Origin: an uncultured Rhodobacter sp.
Lineage (GTDB): Bacteria > Pseudomonadota > Alphaproteobacteria > Rhodobacterales > Rhodobacteraceae
NCBI GenBank assembly: GCA_945952585.1
Contig: CAMFII010000007.1
Span: 124,001-188,000, forward strand
Direction of reading: 5' to 3'
Length of the DNA stretch: 64,000 bases
Part shown: positions 53,293 to 64,000 of the stretch, piece by piece
Position numbering within the stretch: position 1 is the stretch's first letter
Layout of the letters: each line of letters begins with the position of its first letter
The notes under the pieces: generated by a model
Databases searched by the model: none
What the model saw: the letters and a program-made list of their open reading frames with translations, nothing else
Told to the model about the DNA's origin: nothing
Made by a program: the position numbers and the translations under genes

Positions 53293-54212
53293 AGCTCGTG
53301 CGCCCAGGGCGGGTTCGCGCCGGGGCGCGAGACGGTCACGGCAGCGGCGCGCGCGCCGAGCGACAGGGCGGCATCGAGCGCGGCATCGGACAGGTCGGCC
53401 ACCGCGCCCTTGGTCAGGACCCCGTCGCGATCGAGCGCGGCCAGGACGCCGGCGTTGAACGTGTCGCCCGCGCCGACGGTGTCGGCCACGGTCACCTTCT
53501 GCGACGCGACGAAGCGTTCTCCGGTGGCGGTGATGGCGCGGGCGCCCTTTGCCCCTTCGGTGATGAACACGACCTTCGGGCCACGCGCGACAATGCCGCG
53601 GGCGAGGGTGGTGATGTCGCCCGCGCCTTCCAGCCAGTGCAGGTCCTCGTCGGACAGTTTCACGATGTCGGCGCGCGCCATCATCCGGCCGATCCGGGCG
53701 CGGTAGGCAGCCTGGTCGGTGATGAAGCCGGGGCGGATGTTCGGGTCGATCATCGTCACCCGGCCCGAGGCCGCAGCGCGGGCCTGAAGCTCGTCATAGG
53801 CACCGGCGGCGGGGTCGTTCACCAGGCTGATGCCACCGAAGAAGAGCGTGCCGATATGGTCGGGCAGGGCGGGCAGGTCGGCGACCGACAGCAGGCGGCC
53901 CGCGGTGTTTTCATCGTAGAAGGCGTAGGTCGCCTGTCCGTTCACCAGCTTGACGAAGGCGAGCGTCGTCGGCCGGACCGAGCGGGCGCAGAGCGAGGTA
54001 TCGACCCGGGACGCGGCCAGCGTCTGGTCGAGGATCTCGCCGAAGAGGTCTGTCGAAAGGCCGGTGAAGAAGCCGGACGCAGCACCCAACCGGCCAAGCG
54101 CGATGGCGGTGTTGAAGACGGCGCCGCCCGCATAGGGGGCGAAGGCGGCCTCGCCCGCCGTGCTTTCGCGCGGCAGCATGTCGATCAGCGCTTCTCCGCA
54201 GCACAGGATCAT
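53289..54212 (-). CDS. PfkB family carbohydrate kinase (fructokinase-like)
   Basis: A 307-residue ribokinase-family sugar kinase. Signature 1 includes [15 protein letters not shown], and signature 2 is [12 protein letters not shown] with the catalytic Asp. Fructokinases are the closest pattern (C-C-G-E-A-L-I-D at the start). It overlaps dtd and follows purC by 67 bases on the same strand. The exact sugar is not proven. Confidence 0.9.
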
Positions 54213-54279
54213 CGCATCTTCCCCCCTTTGCCTTTGCCCCTTCCTAGGCGGCTCGGGCGTTTCCGGCAATGGGAAGATG

Positions 54280-55254
54280 TTAGCGCCCAAACAAGGGGGC
54301 GAGATTTGCCCGCACCCGGTCCAGAGGCGTGGCCCCGGACATGTCCGGCACGAAGGTCTGGCCGGTGATCGTCTCGTAGGCCTCGATATAGACCTGCGCG
54401 GTGCGGGCGATCATCTCGGCGGGGATCTCCGGGATCGGATCGTGGTAGGGATCGCAGCGCGCGGCGACCCATGCGCGGATCACGTCCTTGTCGAAGGAGG
54501 GCGGACGGGCGCCGGCCTGGAAGGCCTGCTCGTAGCCCGAGGCGATCCAGTAGCGGCTGGAATCGGGGGTGTGAATCTCGTCGGCGATCAGGATGTTGCC
54601 GTCCCTGTCCACGCCGAATTCGTACTTGGTGTCGACGAGGATCAACCCCCGTTCGGCCGCCATCCGCTGGCCCCGGGCGAACAGCGCAAGCGCCCGCTCG
54701 GCGACGAAATCCCATTGCGCCTTGGTCAGAAGGCCGGTCTCGACGATCTGGGCTGCGGTCAGCGGCGCATCGTGGCCGCCGCCGAACTCTTTCGATGTCG
54801 GGGTAAGGATGGCCTGCGGCAGCGCCTGGTTCGGGCGCAAGCCATCGGGGAAGCAGTGGCCATACATCTGCCGCTCGCCCTTCTGGTACAGCGTCAGGAT
54901 CGAAGTGCCGGTGGTTCCGGCCAGATACCCCCGCACGACGATCTCGACCGGCAGGATCGTGACATGCTTGCCGATCACGACATTCGGGTCGGGATAGGCA
55001 AGGACATGGTTCGGGCAGATGTCCGCTGTGTGGTCGAACCAGTAGCGCGCCATCTGGGTCAGCACCTGACCCTTCCACGGGATCGCCGCCAGAATCCGGT
55101 CGAAGGCCGAGATCCGGTCGGACGAGATCAGGATACGCCGCGGTCCATTCACACCGTCGTCGGGCAGGTCGTAGCAGTCGCGGACCTTGCCGAAATAGGG
55201 GTTGGGCAGTTCCGGGATGCGGGCGTGGTCGAGGACGCGGGTCATGTCGGGCAT
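54280..55254 (-). CDS. purC: SAICAR synthase (phosphoribosylaminoimidazole-succinocarboxamide synthase)
   Basis: A 324-residue purine biosynthesis enzyme of the longer form. Motifs are G-K-V-R-D-C-Y-D near residue 22, [18 protein letters not shown], and L-V-D-T-K-Y-E-F-G with [12 protein letters not shown] later. GGAGGCAAAG precedes the ATG and fixes the start. It joins CAIR and aspartate. Confidence 0.96.
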
Positions 55255-55306
55255 CTTTGCCTCCGGCTCGGGACGTGCCGCTCTATCGGGCCGGGGGCAG
55301 CGGGAG

Positions 55307-56266
55307 TCAACCGGACGCAAGGCTGGGTGGGCGGCTGTCGTCGAGCGGGCGCATGGATTGCTGAAGCAGCGTGCGAATCCAGCGATGTGTCGGATTCGCG
55401 GTCGACCTTCTGTGCCAGGCGGCGACGATGCGCATGTTCGGCATCGGCATCGGCGGCTCATACGAGACGAGGCCCATCTTAGGGCCGAGGATGAGGCCGA
55501 GCTGTCTGGGCACCACAGCGATTAGGTCGCTTTCGGCCACGACACGGCAGATACCGGAGAACACGGGCATCGTCATCACGACCCGGCGTGACTGTCCGAT
55601 CCGGGCCAGGGCCTCGTCTGTGATCGAGTGCATCCGCCCTTCGGGCGAGAACAGGGCGTGCCCGAGCGAACAGAACAGGTCGAGAGGAAGCATCTGGCCG
55701 GGCGCAATTCCGGCGGCGGCGATGGCCGGGTGGTCTTTCCGCGCGATGACCCCGAAGGGAGAGTTGAACAGCGTCACCTCATCCACCCAGTCCGGAAAGG
55801 TTTCGGCCGGGATCAGGGCGATGTCGGCCTGATAGCGTTCCAGACTGTCGAGGTAGTTGCTGGGAACAAGATCGACCAGTTGGACCCGGACATTGGGCGC
55901 GCGGGCCGGAAGCTCGCGGGCGAGGACCGGCATCAGCACCTCGGCGAAGAAATCGCTGCCGGCCAGCCGGAAGGTGCCCTCGGCCGTGGTCGGATCGAAA
56001 GCGGAGGGTGGCGCGAAAAGCGCCTCGATCCGGTCAATCTCCTGGCGCAGCGGCAAGGCCAGGCCGCGCGCGTAGTCGGTCGGGACAAGGCCCGATCCCT
56101 GCCGCACGAACAATTCGTCGTCCAGTGCGTGCCGCAGGCGGCCGAGCGCGGCCGATACCGCCGGTTGAGACAGGCCAAGCCGTTCGCCGGCCCGCACCGT
56201 CGAGCCTTCGCGGAGCAGGGCGTCGAGTACCCGCATCAGGTTGAGGTCGAAGGTCGCGAAATTCAT
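55307..56266 (-). CDS. LysR family transcriptional regulator
   Basis: A 319-residue regulator. The winged helix-turn-helix is residues 5-65 ([21 protein letters not shown]) and the rest is the periplasmic-binding-protein-like effector domain (NodD/nitrobenzoate-like branch). I chose M-N-F-A-T-F-D as start; an ATG six codons upstream is possible. It is divergent from the cupin-GST-ThDP genes, with an inverted repeat between them, and probably regulates them. Confidence 0.9.
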
Positions 56267-56287
56267 GCTGTTGATACCGATCATACG

Positions 56288-56303
56288 ATCAATCGATTTT
56301 GAT
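56288..56303. promoter_or_regulatory. candidate LysR operator
   Basis: Inverted repeat ATCAA, 6 bases, TTGAT, located 22 bases upstream of the LysR start in the divergent region. Spacing is one base longer than the T-N11-A rule, so the call is tentative. Confidence 0.4.
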
Positions 56304-56375
56304 TATACACTTCGGCTGGTTATTTTCCAAACCAGAGGCGCCTCACCTTCACCCAAGTGCAAACGGAGATGTTCG

Positions 56376-56822
56376 ATGTTCGATGAATTTCACGGACCCG
56401 GCGCGCTGGACTGGAATGGCGTGCTCTACCGCGTCCTGCTTTCGGCCGCCGATACGGGCGGTGCCCTGTCGGTCGTGGACAGTTGGTGCCCGGCCGGCGA
56501 AGGCCCGCCCCGCCATGTCCATGATGCCGAAGACGAGGCCTTCCTTGTCATCTCGGGCCGGATGCGCTTTTGGCTCGACGGCGTTCTGAGCGAAAAAGGC
56601 CCAGGCGAAACCGTGTTCATTCCCCGCGGCCACGAGCACACGTTCCAGGTGACCGAGGATGGGCCCGCGCGCCATCTCGTCATCCTGACGCCCGGCGGCT
56701 TCGAAGGGTTCTTTGCCGACATGGCGGCGGCTCACTACCAGATCCCGCGCGACATGGGGCCGATCATGGACTCTGCCGCCCGCCACAACCTGCGCTTCAC
56801 CGGCCCGCCGATCGGCGCCTGA
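56376..56822 (+). CDS. cupin domain protein
   Basis: A 148-residue cupin. Motif 1 has G-E-G-P-P-R-H-V-H-D-A-E-D-E-A-F near residue 50 (metal ligands His, His, Glu), and motif 2 has G-E-T-V-F-I-P-R-G-H-E-H-T-F near residue 88. It could be a dioxygenase, isomerase or binding protein. The ATG follows CGGAGATG. It leads the probable operon with the GST and ThDP enzyme, opposite to the LysR gene. Confidence 0.85.
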   Translation: MFDEFHGPGALDWNGVLYRVLLSAADTGGALSVVDSWCPAGEGPPRHVHDAEDEAFLVISGRMRFWLDGVLSEKGPGETVFIPRGHEHTFQVTEDGPARHLVILTPGGFEGFFADMAAAHYQIPRDMGPIMDSAARHNLRFTGPPIGA

Positions 56823-56835
56823 CACGAGAGGGACC

Positions 56836-57633
56836 ATGACGACCGCGACCCGACACATCGTCTACCACATCCCCGTCTGCCCGTTTTCCCAAAGGCTCGA
56901 GATCCTGCTCGAACTGAAGGGCGCGCGTGGGGCTGTGGAGTTCCACACCGTCGATATCACCAGACCCCGCGACCCGGAACTTTTGCGCAAGGCAAACGGC
57001 ACGACCGCCCTGCCGATGATGGAACTGCCCGATGGCCGGATCCTGAAGGAAAGCCTGGTCCTGCTCGACTACCTCGATGAAACCCTGCCCGGTGGCCTGA
57101 TCCGCCGGGCCGACCCCTACGACCGCGCGGTCGAGCGAATGCTGATCGCGAAAGAGGGACCCTTCGCCACGCAGGGCTACATCTTCGTGATGAACGGCGA
57201 TCCGGCGACGCGTGCGGCGCATCGGGCGAAGATGGATGCGCTCTGGCGCGACCTGGACGCCTTCCTTGTCCAGCACAATCCTGACGGCGACTTCCTGTTC
57301 GATCGCTTCGGTCTGGCGGAGGCCGTCTTTACCCCGCTTTTCATGCGCTTCTGGTTCCTTGGTTATTACGAGGGCTACGACCTGCCCGCCGACGCGATCC
57401 GTGCCCGACGCTGGCGCAAGGCCTGTCTTGCTCATCCGGCCGCGCAGCAGGTCACGGAAGAGGAAATCGTCAAGGTTTACTATGACTACGCCCTGGGCGC
57501 AGGGAACGGGGCACTGGTGCCGGGCCGCGGACGCTCGAGCTTTGTCTTCTCGCCCGATTGGCGCGACCGGCCCTGGCCGCCGCGCGACAAGTACGCGGCG
57601 CGGGCGAGCGACGCCGAACTCGGGCTCGCCTGA
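56836..57633 (+). CDS. glutathione S-transferase family protein
   Basis: A 265-residue protein with an N-terminal thioredoxin-like domain starting I-V-Y-H-I-P-V-C-P-F-S-Q-R, where the Cys or Ser is the likely catalytic residue, T-T-A-L-P-M-M-E-L-P and E-S-L-V-L-L-D-Y-L for glutathione binding, and a helical C-terminal domain. It resembles omega- or beta-class enzymes that act on maleylpyruvate, quinones or haloaromatics. It starts 14 bases after the cupin stop. Confidence 0.85.
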   Translation: MTTATRHIVYHIPVCPFSQRLEILLELKGARGAVEFHTVDITRPRDPELLRKANGTTALPMMELPDGRILKESLVLLDYLDETLPGGLIRRADPYDRAVERMLIAKEGPFATQGYIFVMNGDPATRAAHRAKMDALWRDLDAFLVQHNPDGDFLFDRFGLAEAVFTPLFMRFWFLGYYEGYDLPADAIRARRWRKACLAHPAAQQVTEEEIVKVYYDYALGAGNGALVPGRGRSSFVFSPDWRDRPWPPRDKYAARASDAELGLA

Positions 57634-57701
57634 CGGGCCTTGGGGTTGCATCCGGCTGCAGCAGGGTCCAGCCTCGCCGCAGGTCGGGATGGAGGCATTG
57701 C

Positions 57702-59252
57702 ATGAACGGGGCAGAGACGCTGGCGGATACGCTGCTGGCGAGCGGGGTGACTGTCTGTTTTGCCAACCCCGGCACGTCGGAGATGCACTTCGTCTCGGCG
57801 CTGGATGCCCGGCCCGAGATGCGCTGCATCCTCTGCCTGTTCGAAGGCGGCGTGACCGGTGCGGCGGACGCCTATTTCCGCATGTCGGGGCAGGTCGCGG
57901 CAACGCTTCTTCACCTTGCGCCCGGCTTCGCCAACGGCATCGCCAACCTCCACAATGCGCGGAAGGCCGGCAGCGGCGTGCTGAACGTGATGGGCGACCA
58001 TGCGAGCTATCACCTGAAATTCGAAACCCCGCTCAAGGGCGATACCGAGGCGATGAGCCGCACCGTCTCGCACTGGACCCGCAAGGCCGAAGATGCCGGA
58101 TCAGTGGCGCGTGACGGGGCCGAGGCGGTGCGCGCGGCCCGCAGCGCCAACGGCCAGATCGCCACGCTGATCCTGCCCGCTGATGCGGCCTGGAGCGAGG
58201 CCTCCGGTCAAGCGGTGGCGGCCCCGCCGCCCGCCTTGCCACGCCCGAGCCAGGACCAGATCTCGGCGGCGGCACGGGCGCTGCAGGCGCCGGGGGCCGT
58301 CCTGTTCCTCGATGGCGCGGTGCTGCGGCCCGAACACAGCCTTTGGGCGGTGCGGGTGCAGAAGGCCACGGGCTGCCGGCTGATGACGCATTACCTCGCG
58401 GGGCGCATCCCCCGTGGGGAAGGCGCGCCCCGGATCCAGCGCCTCAGCTACCGAATCGACGACGCGCGGGCGGACCTGAAGGGTGTGCCGGAACTGGTGC
58501 TCCTCGGCGCGAGCCGGCCAGCCGGGTTCTTCGCCTATCCGGGCAAGCCGAGCCTGTCGGAAGACCCGTCCTCGCGCGTGACCGAGCTGTGCACGGCCGA
58601 GATGGACACGGTCTGGACCCTGCAGGCGCTGTCGGTGGAGCTTGGCGCGGAGGCGCTCGCGGTGACGCCCGCCGACCTGCAGCCATACGAGCCGTCGTCC
58701 CTGCCCGCCGGCCCGATCACGCCTGCGGCCATCGGCCAGGCGCTGGCGGCGCTGATGCCGTCCGGCACTGTGGTGGTAGACGAGGCGATCACCGCCTCCG
58801 GACCGATCGCGGCGGCAACCGACAAGGCGCGCGCGCATGACTGGCTGAACGTCACGGGCGGCGCGATCGGCTTCGGCCTGCCGGCTGCGGTGGGCGCGGC
58901 GGTGGCCTGCCCCGACCGCCGGGTGCTGGCGCTGCAGGCCGACGGCTCGGCCATGTACACGCTGCAATCGCTCTGGACCATGGCGCGGGAGGAACTGGAC
59001 GTGACCGTGGTCCTCCTCGCCAACCGCGGCTACCAGATCCTGCGGCTCGAGATGCTGAACCTCGGCCTGCCCCCCGCCGGCGGCAACGCCCGCCGGATGG
59101 TCGACGTGGCGGGACCGGAGCTCGACTGGGTGGCGCTGGCCAAGGGTCACGGGGTCGAGGCCGTCCGGGTGACGGACATGGATGGCTTCAACACCGCGCT
59201 CGCGGCGGGGCTGGGGCGGAAAGGGCCGTATCTGATCGAGGCGGTGCTCTAG
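57702..59252 (+). CDS. thiamine diphosphate-dependent enzyme (acetolactate synthase/benzoylformate decarboxylase-like)
   Basis: A 516-residue ThDP enzyme. The catalytic Glu lies in C-L-F-E-G-G-V-T-G near residue 48, the central Rossmann-like domain is at 185-330, and the ThDP/Mg motif is Q-A-D-G-S-A-M-Y about residues 410-417 with L-A-N-R-G-Y downstream. It decarboxylates or condenses 2-keto acids; the true substrate is unknown. No small regulatory subunit is next to it, which argues against a biosynthetic acetolactate synthase. It follows the GST by 68 bases. Confidence 0.85.
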   Translation: MNGAETLADTLLASGVTVCFANPGTSEMHFVSALDARPEMRCILCLFEGGVTGAADAYFRMSGQVAATLLHLAPGFANGIANLHNARKAGSGVLNVMGDHASYHLKFETPLKGDTEAMSRTVSHWTRKAEDAGSVARDGAEAVRAARSANGQIATLILPADAAWSEASGQAVAAPPPALPRPSQDQISAAARALQAPGAVLFLDGAVLRPEHSLWAVRVQKATGCRLMTHYLAGRIPRGEGAPRIQRLSYRIDDARADLKGVPELVLLGASRPAGFFAYPGKPSLSEDPSSRVTELCTAEMDTVWTLQALSVELGAEALAVTPADLQPYEPSSLPAGPITPAAIGQALAALMPSGTVVVDEAITASGPIAAATDKARAHDWLNVTGGAIGFGLPAAVGAAVACPDRRVLALQADGSAMYTLQSLWTMAREELDVTVVLLANRGYQILRLEMLNLGLPPAGGNARRMVDVAGPELDWVALAKGHGVEAVRVTDMDGFNTALAAGLGRKGPYLIEAVL

Positions 59253-59360
59253 GCTGCCTGCTCGTGCGCCATGCGCCGCCTTAATCGTTAGGAACCCGGA
59301 AAGGGGAACCGGGCCAGCATTCCGGGTGAAATGTCATGCCCGGGGGGGCCGCAACTTGAC

Positions 59361-59385
59361 TTGTAACTACAATATGTGGTTACAA
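59361..59385 (+). promoter_or_regulatory. brnTA operator/promoter palindrome
   Basis: A near-perfect 25-base palindrome with arms TTGTAAC and GTTACAA and inner ACA/TGT pairs. A TTGACT box (59356-59361) and a TACAAT box (59381-59386) overlap it. It directly precedes brnT, so it is the likely site where the antitoxin represses its own operon. Confidence 0.7.
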
Positions 59386-59390
59386 TAGCC

Positions 59391-59681
59391 GTGATCTTCG
59401 AATGGGATCCGGCGAAGGACGCCGCAAACATTGCCAAGCACGGGGTCGGTTTCGCGGCCGCTTCCCGCATCTTCGAAGGGCCGGTCCTTACAGCCGAGGA
59501 CCGGCGAAGCGACTACGGAGAGAGGCGGTGGAACAGCATCGGGCGCGTCGCCGGCGTCGTGATCCTTGTGGTGACGCATACCGACAGGGCAGGGCGGGTC
59601 AGGATCATCTCGGCCCGGCCGGCCAAACGTGCGGAAAGGGAACGCTATGAAGAAGCGATACGACCGGGAACTGAGCCTTAA
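59391..59681 (+). CDS. brnT: BrnT family toxin
   Basis: A 96-residue RelE-fold ribonuclease toxin of type II. The start I-F-E-W-D-P-A-K-D-A-A-N-I-A-K-H-G-V, the R-R-S-D-Y-G-E-R-R-W segment and I-I-S-A-R-P-A-K-R-A-E-R-E-R-Y-E at the end are diagnostic. I take the GTG before I-F-E-W; another GTG five codons earlier is possible. The 3' end overlaps the antitoxin start by 35 bases. Confidence 0.92.
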   Translation: MIFEWDPAKDAANIAKHGVGFAAASRIFEGPVLTAEDRRSDYGERRWNSIGRVAGVVILVVTHTDRAGRVRIISARPAKRAERERYEEAIRPGTEP

Positions 59682-59907
59682 GGAGCTTGCTGCGCTGCCG
59701 GACGACCAGATCGACACGCGCGAGGTGCCGGACCTGGACGAAGCCTTCTGGAAAGCGGCCAAGCTGGTCAAGCCCGACCCCACCCAGCAGATCACGCTCA
59801 GGGTGAAGCGCTCGGTGCTGGAGGCCTACAAGGCGACCGGCAAGGGCTACCAGACCCGGATGAATGCGGTGCTGGAGAGCTATGCGAAGGTGTTGAGGAA
59901 GGGGTGA
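59647..59907 (+). CDS. brnA: BrnA family antitoxin
   Basis: An 86-residue antitoxin. The N-terminal part binds the toxin; residues about 50-85 (T-L-R-V-K-R-S-V-L-E-A-Y-K-A-T-G-K-G-Y-Q-T-R-M-N-A-V-L) form the ribbon-helix-helix dimer that binds the operator. AAGGGAACG serves as ribosome-binding site. Toxin-first gene order with overlap is usual for brnTA. Confidence 0.92.
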   Translation: MKKRYDRELSLKELAALPDDQIDTREVPDLDEAFWKAAKLVKPDPTQQITLRVKRSVLEAYKATGKGYQTRMNAVLESYAKVLRKG

Positions 59908-59956
59908 TTTCAGTTCAATAGGTTAACACATAAGCCACGCTTGGAATTGAGCCTAC

Positions 59957-60340
59957 TTATGGATGTAATTTGCCCCTAGATATGGCTTGACGTCTTAGCT
60001 CCTGAGACTTGGTCTTTTTCTCTCCATTTGTCATATTTCCAAAATCCGCATGTGAGTGGTGAGGATTGTGTGGCAAGGGGCTTTCATAGCAGTCCACTAC
60101 ATAAGGCCCCTCAGAAAATTCTTGCGGCGTCAGTCCAAATACTGCTCCCGACGAAAGACCCATGGCAATGAAATCGTCGAAGGAATCCTTGGCTGTCGTC
60201 GTCGCTGAACGATCCATAGAAAGAAGATTCTCATCTTTCTTTGTAGGGATGAATGCAAGTCGACTAGGAAGGTCGTTTTCGATCCAACTGGGATGAACTT
60301 GCCGAAACTGAATCTCCGACTCGTCTTCAATCTTCTTCAT
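59957..60340 (-). CDS. uncharacterised small protein of AT-rich cassette
   Basis: A 127-residue hydrophilic protein with V-H-P-S-W-I-E-N-D near the start, S-R-L-A-F-I-P-T-K-K-D-E-N-L-L-S-M and a basic C-terminus (S-Q-E-L-R-R-Q-A-I-S-R-G-K-L-H-P). Histidines cluster in P-H-N-P-H-H-S-H. I recall a widespread family of small unknown proteins with the H-P-S-W start and R-G-W/K-L end, often in accessory DNA; that is memory, not a search. Its ATG overlaps the upstream gene by 14 bases and has no ribosome-binding site of its own, so it is translated by coupling. Confidence 0.7.
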   Translation of the reverse strand: MKKIEDESEIQFRQVHPSWIENDLPSRLAFIPTKKDENLLSMDRSATTTAKDSFDDFIAMGLSSGAVFGLTPQEFSEGPYVVDCYESPLPHNPHHSHADFGNMTNGEKKTKSQELRRQAISRGKLHP

Positions 60341-61466
60341 TTGCAACACCAGTCATTTTGTCAAAGGCAGCAAAGAATTCGGCATTAAAGCCCGGAAAAT
60401 CTTTAGCCTCTGACACTGCACCATTTGGCGAGCTCCCATCTATTTCTAGTCGCCCATCAGGAAAAATTTCTACAGCGAAGCTCCAATCGGCAATGTCAAA
60501 CTCGATTGATACACCTCCATCTTCGGTCGGGAAGATATGAAAGAGTTTGGCTAGATCAGCTCGGGCAAATATCAACTGAGTGGCGCGCATGCCCGCAAGA
60601 TGAACGAGTTGCTCTCCGTGATCCTCTCCCAGCCAACCTTTTTCATTTCTAGAGATTTCCTGAAGCCGAGTTAGGCACCTCTTGACGTGTTCATCATATG
60701 GCCGAACAAGATCAACGGAGTGAACCTCTTCAATTGCACTAATTTCATCATGTGCATCTAAAGCAATTGAGATTGAGAATTCTACTGGGGAATGTAAATT
60801 TCCGTCGAACTGTTCCGCAGGCATCGAAACACCATCCAGATCGACGCGAATCTCACCAAACCTTTCTGTTTGAACCTGAATAGTGTTGTGAGTTGCATCA
60901 ATACCTGTCAGGATTCCGACATCCTCATACTGTATAGTGTAGGTTTCACGAATTCTGGTGAGAAGTTGCTTTCTTTTGTGTTGATCTAGGCTCACCACAT
61001 TTCCGTCTTCGTGATTCTTGCCGACGAACTCTATTCGCTCGTCATCTCTGATATTGGCGCCAAATTTTGACAACGCCCGAATTGCATCCTGTGGAAGAGC
61101 TTTTGGATACTTATCGATTGATGCATCTTTGAATATTTCAACGGCTCTGATATAGGCTTTTCCCACAATTCCTTGCATCTTGTTCCCAATATTGGGAAGA
61201 TTTTGCTGCGCCACGTCGAGCTCCAATTCCAAGACTGGAATGGCGCTTCCATCTCTAATCTCTGTCAGTGCGAAAGCGATACTCCTGTCAAATCCTTGTG
61301 GCACTCGCTTCCTGTCGGGGTTTTTTTGCCGAAAATCCTGTTTGGCGAGTGCTGCAATGAGGTCGCGAAGTGCTGGCAGATCTGACAACACATCAACGGG
61401 AAGGCGAGCACCCTTATAACGGTCACCGACGTAGCGCAGGCACAATGAGCTTTCCAGATCGTCCAT
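60327..61466 (-). CDS. uncharacterised protein of AT-rich cassette
   Basis: A 379-residue soluble protein of unknown function. It begins M-D-D-L-E-S-S-L-C-L-R-Y with a helical N-terminal domain (to ~130), then a region with T-I-Q-Y-E-D-V-G-I-L-T-G-I-D that reads like a small beta-barrel, and a C-terminal domain rich in strands ending F-A-A-F-D-K-M-T-G. No nuclease, NTPase or membrane motif is visible. The ATG follows GTGAGG. Base composition is near 45% GC on the lines I counted against roughly 65% in the neighbours, so it was likely acquired. The small gene downstream is coupled to it. Confidence 0.7.
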   Translation of the reverse strand: MDDLESSLCLRYVGDRYKGARLPVDVLSDLPALRDLIAALAKQDFRQKNPDRKRVPQGFDRSIAFALTEIRDGSAIPVLELELDVAQQNLPNIGNKMQGIVGKAYIRAVEIFKDASIDKYPKALPQDAIRALSKFGANIRDDERIEFVGKNHEDGNVVSLDQHKRKQLLTRIRETYTIQYEDVGILTGIDATHNTIQVQTERFGEIRVDLDGVSMPAEQFDGNLHSPVEFSISIALDAHDEISAIEEVHSVDLVRPYDEHVKRCLTRLQEISRNEKGWLGEDHGEQLVHLAGMRATQLIFARADLAKLFHIFPTEDGGVSIEFDIADWSFAVEIFPDGRLEIDGSSPNGAVSEAKDFPGFNAEFFAAFDKMTGVANEED

Positions 61467-61547
61467 TTGCAAATGCCTCACAACTTTTGGCTTGGCGGTC
61501 AAGGGCTGACTCAACTCTGGGCATACTTTTGACGCATCTGCGCCGTC

Positions 61548-62666
61548 TCACCCCACCTGTATCACACCATTCTCCCTCAAATAAACCACCACACCCACCA
61601 CTACCGCCGCCGCCAGCACCGCCAGCATGATCTTCCAAACCGAATAGGGCCGCTCGCCTTGGACCTCGCCGGTCTGGGCGTTGACGAGGAAGCGGTAGCT
61701 CTTGCCGTTGTACTTGTAGGCGGCAGACCAGATCGGCAGGAGGATGTGCTTGAAGGTCTCGGCGGAATGGCGCGTCTCGACCGCCTCGATGCGCTGCTCG
61801 TCGCCACCGATGTCGCGGGCGACGTCGAGGCGGATGATCTGCTCCATCCGTGCCCGCGCCTCGGCATGACCGTCGCGGAGCGCGACGGTATAGCCCTCGG
61901 CCCCGAACCCGGCGAGGTAGTCTGGGCGGTAGGGGACGAGCGCGTTCAGGTCCCAAGGCGTCAGCTCGTCGCCCAGCCGCTTCGGCAGGCTGGTCGAGGC
62001 CATGACCAGAACGTCGTCGAAGCGCCGCGCGACCTGGCCCGAGACCGGATACCAGCGGATCTTGCGCACCTGCACCTGCCGCCGTTCGTTGCGGCCATTG
62101 ACGTTCACCGTCACCCATTCGGTGTCGTAATAGGCGACCCCGCGCTGGCCGCGGTAGCGGCTGGCGGTGTCGGCATCGAAGGTCCAGAACGGCACATACA
62201 TCCCGGCCAGCGCCCGGCCGCGGCGGGTGTATTCCACAAGCCCGTTCGGCGCGAACCAGAGGCGGCCCAGCCACTTGACCATCTCGGCCCGCGCCTGCGT
62301 CTCGGACAGGCGGAAGGGGATCAGTGCCTGCGGCTTGATAAGGCGGCTCGTGCCGGTATCGATGACGACAGGCGTCGCGCAGAACGGGCAGTCGGCGGCA
62401 TGGGTGGCACCGTCGAAGGTCACGACGGCCCCGCAGGAGGGGCAGTGGGCGGTCCGCACCTCGGTCATCTGGCTGGCGGGCAGGTCGTTGGCGAGGCCCG
62501 CGCGCAGGTCGTATTCGGTCAGGGCCGAGCGGCGCGAGGGCGTGTCGGCCTGCGGAATGCCCTGCACATGGCCGCAATAGGGGCAGACGAGTTCGGTCTG
62601 CCCGGGGGCGAAGCGCAGGTCCGCGCCGCAGCTTTCACAGGGAAAGCGGTGTTCTTCCTGCGGCAC
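61548..62666 (-). CDS. zinc-ribbon membrane protein
   Basis: A 372-residue protein with two N-terminal zinc ribbons: C-E-S-C with C-P-Y-C (about residues 10-31), and C-P-S-C with C-P-F-C (about 75-96). A middle domain of ~220 residues has Y-V-P-F-W-T-F-D-A-D, and one transmembrane helix lies at the C-terminus (about 346-365). Such proteins are often called primosomal-N'-like, but no helicase domain is present. It follows the SPFH gene by 12 bases on the same strand, a common pairing. Confidence 0.8.
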   Translation of the reverse strand: MPQEEHRFPCESCGADLRFAPGQTELVCPYCGHVQGIPQADTPSRRSALTEYDLRAGLANDLPASQMTEVRTAHCPSCGAVVTFDGATHAADCPFCATPVVIDTGTSRLIKPQALIPFRLSETQARAEMVKWLGRLWFAPNGLVEYTRRGRALAGMYVPFWTFDADTASRYRGQRGVAYYDTEWVTVNVNGRNERRQVQVRKIRWYPVSGQVARRFDDVLVMASTSLPKRLGDELTPWDLNALVPYRPDYLAGFGAEGYTVALRDGHAEARARMEQIIRLDVARDIGGDEQRIEAVETRHSAETFKHILLPIWSAAYKYNGKSYRFLVNAQTGEVQGERPYSVWKIMLAVLAAAVVVGVVVYLRENGVIQVG

Positions 62667-62678
62667 GTCCGCCTCCCG

Positions 62679-63779
62679 TCAGGCCCCCGGCGGCAGGGGT
62701 GGCGGGGTCTGCGACAGGAGATCGGCGAGGGCCGTGTCCGACGCGGCCTTCCAGCCCTCCTGCCCGGCGGTCCAGACGAGGGTCTTCGCCGTCAGCGTGC
62801 CGTTGGCCGCCATCCCTGCCAGCTGCGACTGCGGGAAGGGGCCCTGCGTCGCGCCGTTGGCGGCGATGTGCCACTGGCGCTCGGCCGAGGGGGCGGGGGG
62901 CGGCGGTGGCGCGGCCGGGCCAGGGGCCGGGGCGGTGCCCCAGGGGCCACGCCGCGCCATCTCCATCCCCATGCCCGCGCCCATGCCCGTCGCCATGGCC
63001 GAGCCCGCGCCCGAGGCCGGGTTGTTCAGTGCTTCGGCCGCCGAGAACTCGGTGTATTTCGACAGGTCACCGGCGATGCCGGTTGAGGTCCGCTTGTCGA
63101 GCACTTTCTCAACTTCCTCGGGCAAGCTGATGTTCTCGATGTAGAATTCCGGCAGGATCAGCCCATATTCCGCGATCTGCGGCGCGATCGCCGTGGTGAT
63201 GAGCTTGGACAGGTCCTTGGTGTTCGCCGCCATATCGAGCACCGGGATCTTCGACGAGGCGAGCACGCGGCCGACCTCCTGCAGGATCACGTTGCGGATC
63301 TGGAAGCTGATCTCGTCGGCGGTGAATTCGCCATCGGTGCCGACGATCTCGGTCATGAAGCGGGCCGGGTCTGAGACGCGCATCGAATAGGTGCCGAAGG
63401 CGCGCAGGCGGATCGGGCCGAACTCCGGATCGCGGGTCATGATGGGGTTCTTGGTGCCCCATTTCTGGTCGTTGAAGCGCGTGGTGTTGATGAAATAGAT
63501 CTCGGACTTGAACGGCGACTTGAAGCCGTGGTCCCAGTGCTGGAGCGTCGTCAGGATCGGCAGGTTGTTGGTCTCGAGCATGTAGAGACCGGGGCCGAAG
63601 GTGTCGGCCAGCTGCCCCTCGTGGATGAAGACCGCCGCCTGCCCCTCGCGAACGGTCAGCTTCGCGCCATACTTGATCGCGTTGCCCCGGCGTTCAAAGC
63701 GCCAGACCATGGTGTCGCGTGTGTCATCGGTCCATTCGATGACGTCGATGAATTCGCCTGTGAAGAAGCCGAGGACCAT
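62679..63779 (-). CDS. SPFH domain protein with C-terminal GYF_2 domain
   Basis: A 366-residue protein. Residues about 45-240 form an SPFH/band-7 domain of the YdjI-like branch (E-G-Q-A-A-V-F-I-H-E-G, F-G-P-G-L-Y-M-L), then a Gly/Met/Ala/Pro-rich linker (260-305) and a GYF_2 domain (W-H-I-A-A-N-G-A-T-Q-G-P-F, then W-T-A-G-Q-E-G-W). SPFH proteins build membrane platforms. The partner is the zinc-ribbon protein downstream. The start M-V-L-G-F-F-T-G-E-F is typical. Confidence 0.88.
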   Translation of the reverse strand: MVLGFFTGEFIDVIEWTDDTRDTMVWRFERRGNAIKYGAKLTVREGQAAVFIHEGQLADTFGPGLYMLETNNLPILTTLQHWDHGFKSPFKSEIYFINTTRFNDQKWGTKNPIMTRDPEFGPIRLRAFGTYSMRVSDPARFMTEIVGTDGEFTADEISFQIRNVILQEVGRVLASSKIPVLDMAANTKDLSKLITTAIAPQIAEYGLILPEFYIENISLPEEVEKVLDKRTSTGIAGDLSKYTEFSAAEALNNPASGAGSAMATGMGAGMGMEMARRGPWGTAPAPGPAAPPPPPAPSAERQWHIAANGATQGPFPQSQLAGMAANGTLTAKTLVWTAGQEGWKAASDTALADLLSQTPPPLPPGA

Positions 63780-63802
63780 CAGTCACTCCTCCGTTTTGAC
63801 AA

Positions 63803-64000
63803 TCAACTGTTGCCACCAACCAGCTCGGTGGCGAGCGAATAGACAATCGGCCGCGCCTCGGCCTCGGTCATGCCGGTGCGCAGGCGCGGGTCATAGAGCA
63901 TCTTCAGCATCAACTCGTCCTGCGGGGTGAGCAAGGCGAATTCCTCGTCATCGTTGAAGATCGACGGTCGGGCATCGGGGCTGTCATTGGCCAGGCCAAG
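63803..64000 (-). CDS. DUF2927 domain protein (C-terminal part)
   Basis: Only the last 65 codons lie in the window; the gene continues beyond position 64000. The visible end reads N-D-S-P-D-A-R-P-S-I-F-N-D-D-E-E-F-A, then D-E-L-M-L-K-M-L-Y-D-P-R-L-R and E-A-E-A-R-P-I-V, the C-terminal pattern of DUF2927 secreted proteins. It is 23 bases upstream of the SPFH start on the same strand. Confidence 0.75.
   Translation of the reverse strand, partial: LGLANDSPDARPSIFNDDEEFALLTPQDELMLKMLYDPRLRTGMTEAEARPIVYSLATELVGGNS

Follow-up and report, generated by a model that had tools for sequence, protein, structure and literature searches.

Organization and family assignment of the gene pair

The window analysed here is a stretch of 64,000 nucleotides from an uncultured Rhodobacter sp. 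(contig CAMFII010000007.1, positions 124,001 to 188,000), and the subject of this study is a pair of reverse-strand genes, designated A and B, at 59957-61466. Gene A (60327-61466) encodes 379 residues from an ATG codon and gene B (59957-60340) encodes 127 residues from an ATG codon, the latter with a predicted ADP-ribosyltransferase (ART)-like fold. The two reading frames overlap by 14 bases (60327-60340), as stated in a preliminary description made from the sequence. Alternative starts are a TTG at 61514, which would extend A to 395 residues, and a GTG at 60349, which would extend B to 130. The G+C content (GC) of A and B was 0.464 and 0.462, respectively, compared to 0.655 for the whole window, and fell to 0.44-0.48 within the pair in a 500-base profile, confirming that an AT-rich pair (about 45% GC) stands out from surroundings of about 65%.

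Both products matched models of the PDC-M32 family (PDC, phage defence candidate) in PADLOC-DB 2.0.0. A matched the PDC-M32A model PDLC04577 (E 6.6e-96, residues 6-370 of 379), B matched the PDC-M32B model PDLC04578 (E 7.9e-26, residues 11-129 of 130), and the 14-base overlap accords with the adjacency demanded of the two genes. Pfam returned no family at E<=1 for either product, NCBIfam yielded nothing meaningful, and no named PADLOC system was matched by either better than E 0.009. Homologous proteins are encoded in Aliiroseovarius lamellibrachiae (67% identity in the best segment for A, 70% for B); as this homologous pair exists and the pairing recurs elsewhere, the two open reading frames are not chance occurrences. 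We regard membership of the pair in PDC-M32 as virtually certain.

PDCs derive from a guilt-by-embedding approach and most lack experimental validation (PMC12988326). The PDC-M32 label appears in a report on Sinorhizobium meliloti prophages (PMC12429752), which was the only article mentioning PDC-M32 in a full-text search of an open-access library; no published test of phage protection by PDC-M32 was found in the literature searched. PADLOC thus already catalogues this defence candidate, which is uncharacterised, and the window pair adds a member to it. The term 'undescribed system' in the preliminary description was therefore too strong. No homologue with a housekeeping role was found in Pfam, NCBIfam, PADLOC and related searches.

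Co-occurrence of A and B

Twenty-two copies of A, whole or as its C-terminal part, were compiled from genomes and plasmids, with records L049 and L050 treated as one. Directly downstream, 20 of them have a homologue of B; the two that lack it are L033 and the middle copy in L026, which is decaying. B was partial or split in three cases (L027, L045 and the record L049). Among viral contigs, all 12 with a B alignment had an A-like frame directly upstream. In two of these, L061 and L062, A is reduced to its C-terminal part, and beyond about residue 100 the B protein no longer follows the family. Thus, the two genes do occur together across genomes, the alternative that they never pair elsewhere having been raised in the preliminary description.

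Several individual loci were also noted. No B homologue was found beside the M32A-type gene at L033:4454-5821. One genome (G102; L026, L027 and L045) contained several copies of the pair. An internal TGA interrupts one of the A copies, next to which no B was found, a pattern resembling an array in decay. L049 and L050 represent the same 5.4-kb Paracoccus aestuarii plasmid, with a difference in length of one base; B is split in one record and whole in the other.

Conserved residues and predicted fold of B

The H-P-S-W motif and histidine cluster remarked upon earlier were located in B, at residues 16-19 and within HNPHHSHADF, respectively. A combined alignment identified three near-invariant polar residues spanning 60056-60304 on the reverse strand: R13 (60302-60304; R in 38 of 40 sequences), S41 (60218-60220; S in 40 of 40) and H95 (60056-60058; H in 38 of 40). 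Judging from this conservation, R13, S41 and H95 may constitute the active site of B.

The NAD (nicotinamide adenine dinucleotide) site of ARTs consists of three motifs (R/H, S/Y/H, and E/D/Q or similar). In a structure comparison of the B model, several separate ART families occupied the top 13 ranks; the 127-residue model aligned with residues 84-177 only of the KptA chain. The R, S and H residues lie on or at model strands 11-15, 39-44 and 95-99, and so follow one another as the three motifs do in ARTs; H95 is atypical for the third position. Two results weigh against an ART assignment. Foldseek returned no significant match for the B model, and hhalign comparisons of B with KptA and RES provided no support (P 0.098-0.87). 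As the accepted ARTs KptA and RES gave P 0.54 against one another, however, the hhalign test cannot exclude ART kinship of B. The competing explanation, which is compatible with the other alternatives considered below, is that B, a small alpha/beta protein, only looks like the KptA lobe and that its binding site is unrelated. This would account for the lack of Foldseek significance and profile support, but not readily for the several ART families at the top of the ranking or for the positions and order of R, S and H. We consider this explanation a serious one that is nonetheless the less probable of the two, and in our judgement B probably has an ART fold.

Architecture of A and a possible wider modular family

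A central beta-barrel had been suspected in the larger protein, and an OB-like barrel was predicted at about residues 175-255 of A (60702-60944, reverse strand). It is followed by a C-terminal GW-(D)G domain at about residues 256-379 (60330-60701, reverse strand), supported by the PADLOC M32A models and an alignment; the structure model of A was of low confidence in this domain. Residues G14, R16, P23, F59, E143, W278, G317 and E322 of A are invariant.

The GW(D)G domain is shared with short proteins whose genes precede B-like genes, and the M32A models match those proteins over this part only. Fourteen such C-terminal-only frames were examined (L038-L042, the second frame of L045, L096-L102 and L104; L103 was dropped as false). 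By eye, a B-like gene was present downstream of 13, being weak in L042 and split in L098; none was seen downstream of the second frame of L045. When the last eight loci were compared with a B model built before they had been seen, three passed E<0.01. A profile of 27 M32B sequences aligned with a profile of the 13 downstream proteins, which were hand-picked, with a probability of 97.7 (P 1.7e-12, 119 columns).

What precedes the GW(D)G domain varies. Upstream of the 13 frames, TIGR04255 was found in seven, six of them exceeding the NCBIfam cut-off, and an AAA_21 ATPase matching AbiLi in one (L039:3856-6311, the same place as L021), followed by the GW(D)G and B-like proteins; no sensor was recognised upstream of the remaining five (L041, L042, L096, L097 and L100). 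At L037:8938-10314 the GW(D)G domain is fused to preceding TPR/PPR-like repeats that score just below the Pfam cut-off, and B follows; in L061 and L062 a Cys-rich part precedes the domain by eye. The three-gene cassettes encoding TIGR04255, GW(D)G and B-like proteins (L038, L040, L098, L099, L101, L102 and L104, the last just below the cut-off) are candidate relatives of PDC-M32. Starting from TIGR04255, 8 of 19 genes were followed by GW(D)G and B-like proteins at E<0.01. As five of the eight were already known and had been used in the models, the independent count is 3 of 14, and most TIGR04255 genes therefore have other partners. No mention of TIGR04255 was found in the open-access literature searched.

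These arrangements bear on which protein is the effector. Were A the effector and B its inhibitor or regulator, the larger size of A, its own invariant residues, its predicted nucleic-acid-type barrel and the one A without B (L033) would be accommodated. However, three polar residues of B are kept throughout the family despite its divergence, the B model best resembles an enzyme fold, and relatives have a different N-terminal part in A but retain the C-terminal domain and B. We consider this assignment of roles improbable.

The most interesting lead is that PDC-M32 might form a branch of a large, unnamed family of modular immunity systems. At its core would be B, as an ART-type effector with the R-S-H residues, together with a GW(D)G partner domain, and the sensor combined with them would be interchangeable. 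The sensors in such a scheme would be the fused OB-containing N-terminal part of M32A, TIGR04255, the AAA_21 ATPase, the TPR/PPR-like repeats and the Cys-rich module. We put this forward as a speculative proposal. If true, a single new class of NAD-dependent effector, with an active site unlike that of known ARTs, would receive input from sensors responding to different phage products.

Genomic settings

Type I restriction operons contained 4 of the 22 copies. In L030, L031 and L032, A directly follows hsdM (PF02384, PF12161), and hsdS (PF01420) follows B in these three and in L034, with a RhuM-like gene between them in L030; the L034 contig ends inside A. Pfam matches nearby were HsdR in L030, a CAP12-type TIR protein in L034 and FRG proteins in L032 and L034. 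As A in L030, L032 and L034 shares 63-66% identity with the A protein of L031, the placement may reflect a single embedding event.

In viral contigs L051-L060, which form five groups at 90% identity of A, an S24 repressor was located upstream of the pair in all ten (with HTH_3 in seven), at a distance of 38-77 bp in eight and of 446 and 663 bp in two. No upstream repressor was seen by eye in L061 or L062. Position between hsdM and hsdS or adjoining S24-type repressors could indicate an accessory or regulator of restriction-modification or lysogeny, e.g. one that modifies HsdM/HsdS or the repressor, rather than an effector module. However, no type I operon was seen around the other 18 of 22 copies, the window's included (L047 is near a methyltransferase-helicase pair), and two such different settings better fit portable cargo. 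An accessory role therefore seems to us unlikely.

Among plasmid and genome copies, toxin-antitoxin genes were found near L035, L037, L048 and L049, and a relaxase near L002. The neighbours include Nucleotidyltransferase/HepT genes at L035:9642-10464 and a HepT gene at L037:6981-7661. An addiction module of toxin-antitoxin type, with A as the antitoxin of B and no phage-specific function, would stabilise plasmids, prophages and islands. The two overlapping genes, the carriage by plasmids (including one of 5.4 kb) and viral contigs, and the toxin-antitoxin neighbours in several loci are all consistent with this explanation. It fits less well with an A protein that is multi-domain and three times the size of B, with the copies embedded in type I operons, and with replacement of the part before GW(D)G by TIGR04255, ATPase or TPR/PPR-like repeats, as an exchangeable part suggests sensing of something variable. 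We consider an addiction module a minority possibility, although the strongest of the three alternative roles. The window pair itself, which adjoins brnTA, lies in a defence-like place, as the preliminary description proposed.

Acquisition and distribution

The toxin-antitoxin neighbours in the window are genuine by Pfam: brnT (59376-59681, forward strand; PF04365, E 2.9e-24) and brnA (59629-59907, forward strand; PF14384, E 3.2e-15) are convergent to the A-B pair and 49 bp from it. In a blastn comparison of 54001-64000 with the close congener G1024 (L141), positions 54001-59253 and 61541-64000 were collinear at 85 and 90% identity, respectively, and 208 bp replaced the block at 59254-61540. 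As the flanks are collinear with only 208 bp between them, the 2287-bp block containing brnTA and the pair is present or absent as one piece between these two genomes. Congeners L142-L144 matched both sides of the block in a different arrangement. The GC of brnTA is host-like (0.63), whereas that of the pair is not (0.46); the two modules may therefore have come from different sources. Third-position GC was 0.42 for A and 0.45 for B compared to 0.71 for brnT and 0.88 for brnA. In a selection of 15 of the compiled loci, the AT content of the pair exceeded that of its flanks in 13 (exceptions, L046 and L048).

PDC-M32 is rare. It was present in 4 of 295 same-family genomes, own genome included, and in a class-wide sample in 1 of 385, the window's own. 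A phylum-wide sample searched with another M32A model gave 14 matches in 398 genomes, six at E below 1e-50 (own included). Six plasmid records carry PDC-M32. Beside A, at 61548-63779, are genes for a zinc-ribbon-like protein (below Pfam cut-offs) and an SPFH/GYF_2 protein; the former occurs in 19 of the 31 genomes that were searched, the window's own among them, and represents ordinary flank.

Proposed mechanism

Taken as a whole, the earlier interpretation of an acquired two-gene cassette that is kept together in a defence-like place and contains a barrel was upheld, except for its undescribed status. In our judgement an anti-phage role for the pair is likely. The fuller reading, a horizontally acquired PDC-M32 two-gene anti-phage (superinfection-immunity) module of toxin-antitoxin type with ART effector B and partner A, is one that we hold tentatively. 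B would be a small effector enzyme whose R-S-H residues act on NAD, either cleaving it or modifying RNA or protein. A would be the partner of B: its C-terminal domain would pair with B, and its OB-containing N-terminal part would sense an infection product, plausibly nucleic acid. In the resting cell A would keep B silent, a restraint to which we assign even chances by judgement, and infection would free or activate B such that growth stops before phage release. As GW(D)G goes with B in nearly all loci examined, the preceding part varies, and B has a conserved site, a sensor-partner with an effector is the most economical model. If B is an NAD-using effector, a database entry without function gains a testable mechanism, and the wider, unnamed set of cassettes that combine TIGR04255 with a GW(D)G protein and a B-like protein becomes a candidate defence family with swappable sensors.

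Comparison with known systems

PDC-M32 itself (multi-gene 32 of PADLOC-DB 2.0.0) has the same two proteins, adjacency and overlap and is the same family; its PADLOC entries carry no function. The part of the tRNA 2'-phosphotransferase Tpt1/KptA with which B is compared is the C-terminal NAD-binding lobe. B was rejected as a Tpt1/KptA protein: at only 127 residues it lacks the N-terminal lobe and hence the two-lobe architecture, and it has no PF01885 match at E<=1 and no significant profile match.

In phage lambda the rex genes follow the repressor gene (cI-rexA-rexB), and the second RexAB partner is a membrane protein. The viral PDC-M32 relatives share the position downstream of a prophage repressor, a likeness of layout, and no prophage setting was seen for the window copy. 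RexAB was rejected as an identity for the pair, no membrane-like segment being found in B (highest 19-residue hydropathy 0.99; <=1.40 in 27 B relatives).

The RES toxins of Xre-RES systems adopt an ART fold, and depletion of NAD is described for several of them (PMC12204516). An Xre-RES identity, with RES in B and Xre/MbcA in A, was likewise rejected, as no Pfam family was matched at E<=1; B has no RES match, A has no Pfam domain, and a toxin role for B is only proposed. The window's own genome contains two RES-domain genes elsewhere (G000:C10:190541-190981 and G000:C2:107932-108372).

CmdTAC is an mRNA ADP-ribosyltransferase defence system with an experimentally studied ART effector that is freed on infection (PMC11618068). 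Although CmdTAC differs in having three genes and other partners, it provides a comparison for how the pair might work, with an ART effector held by its partners and released on infection.
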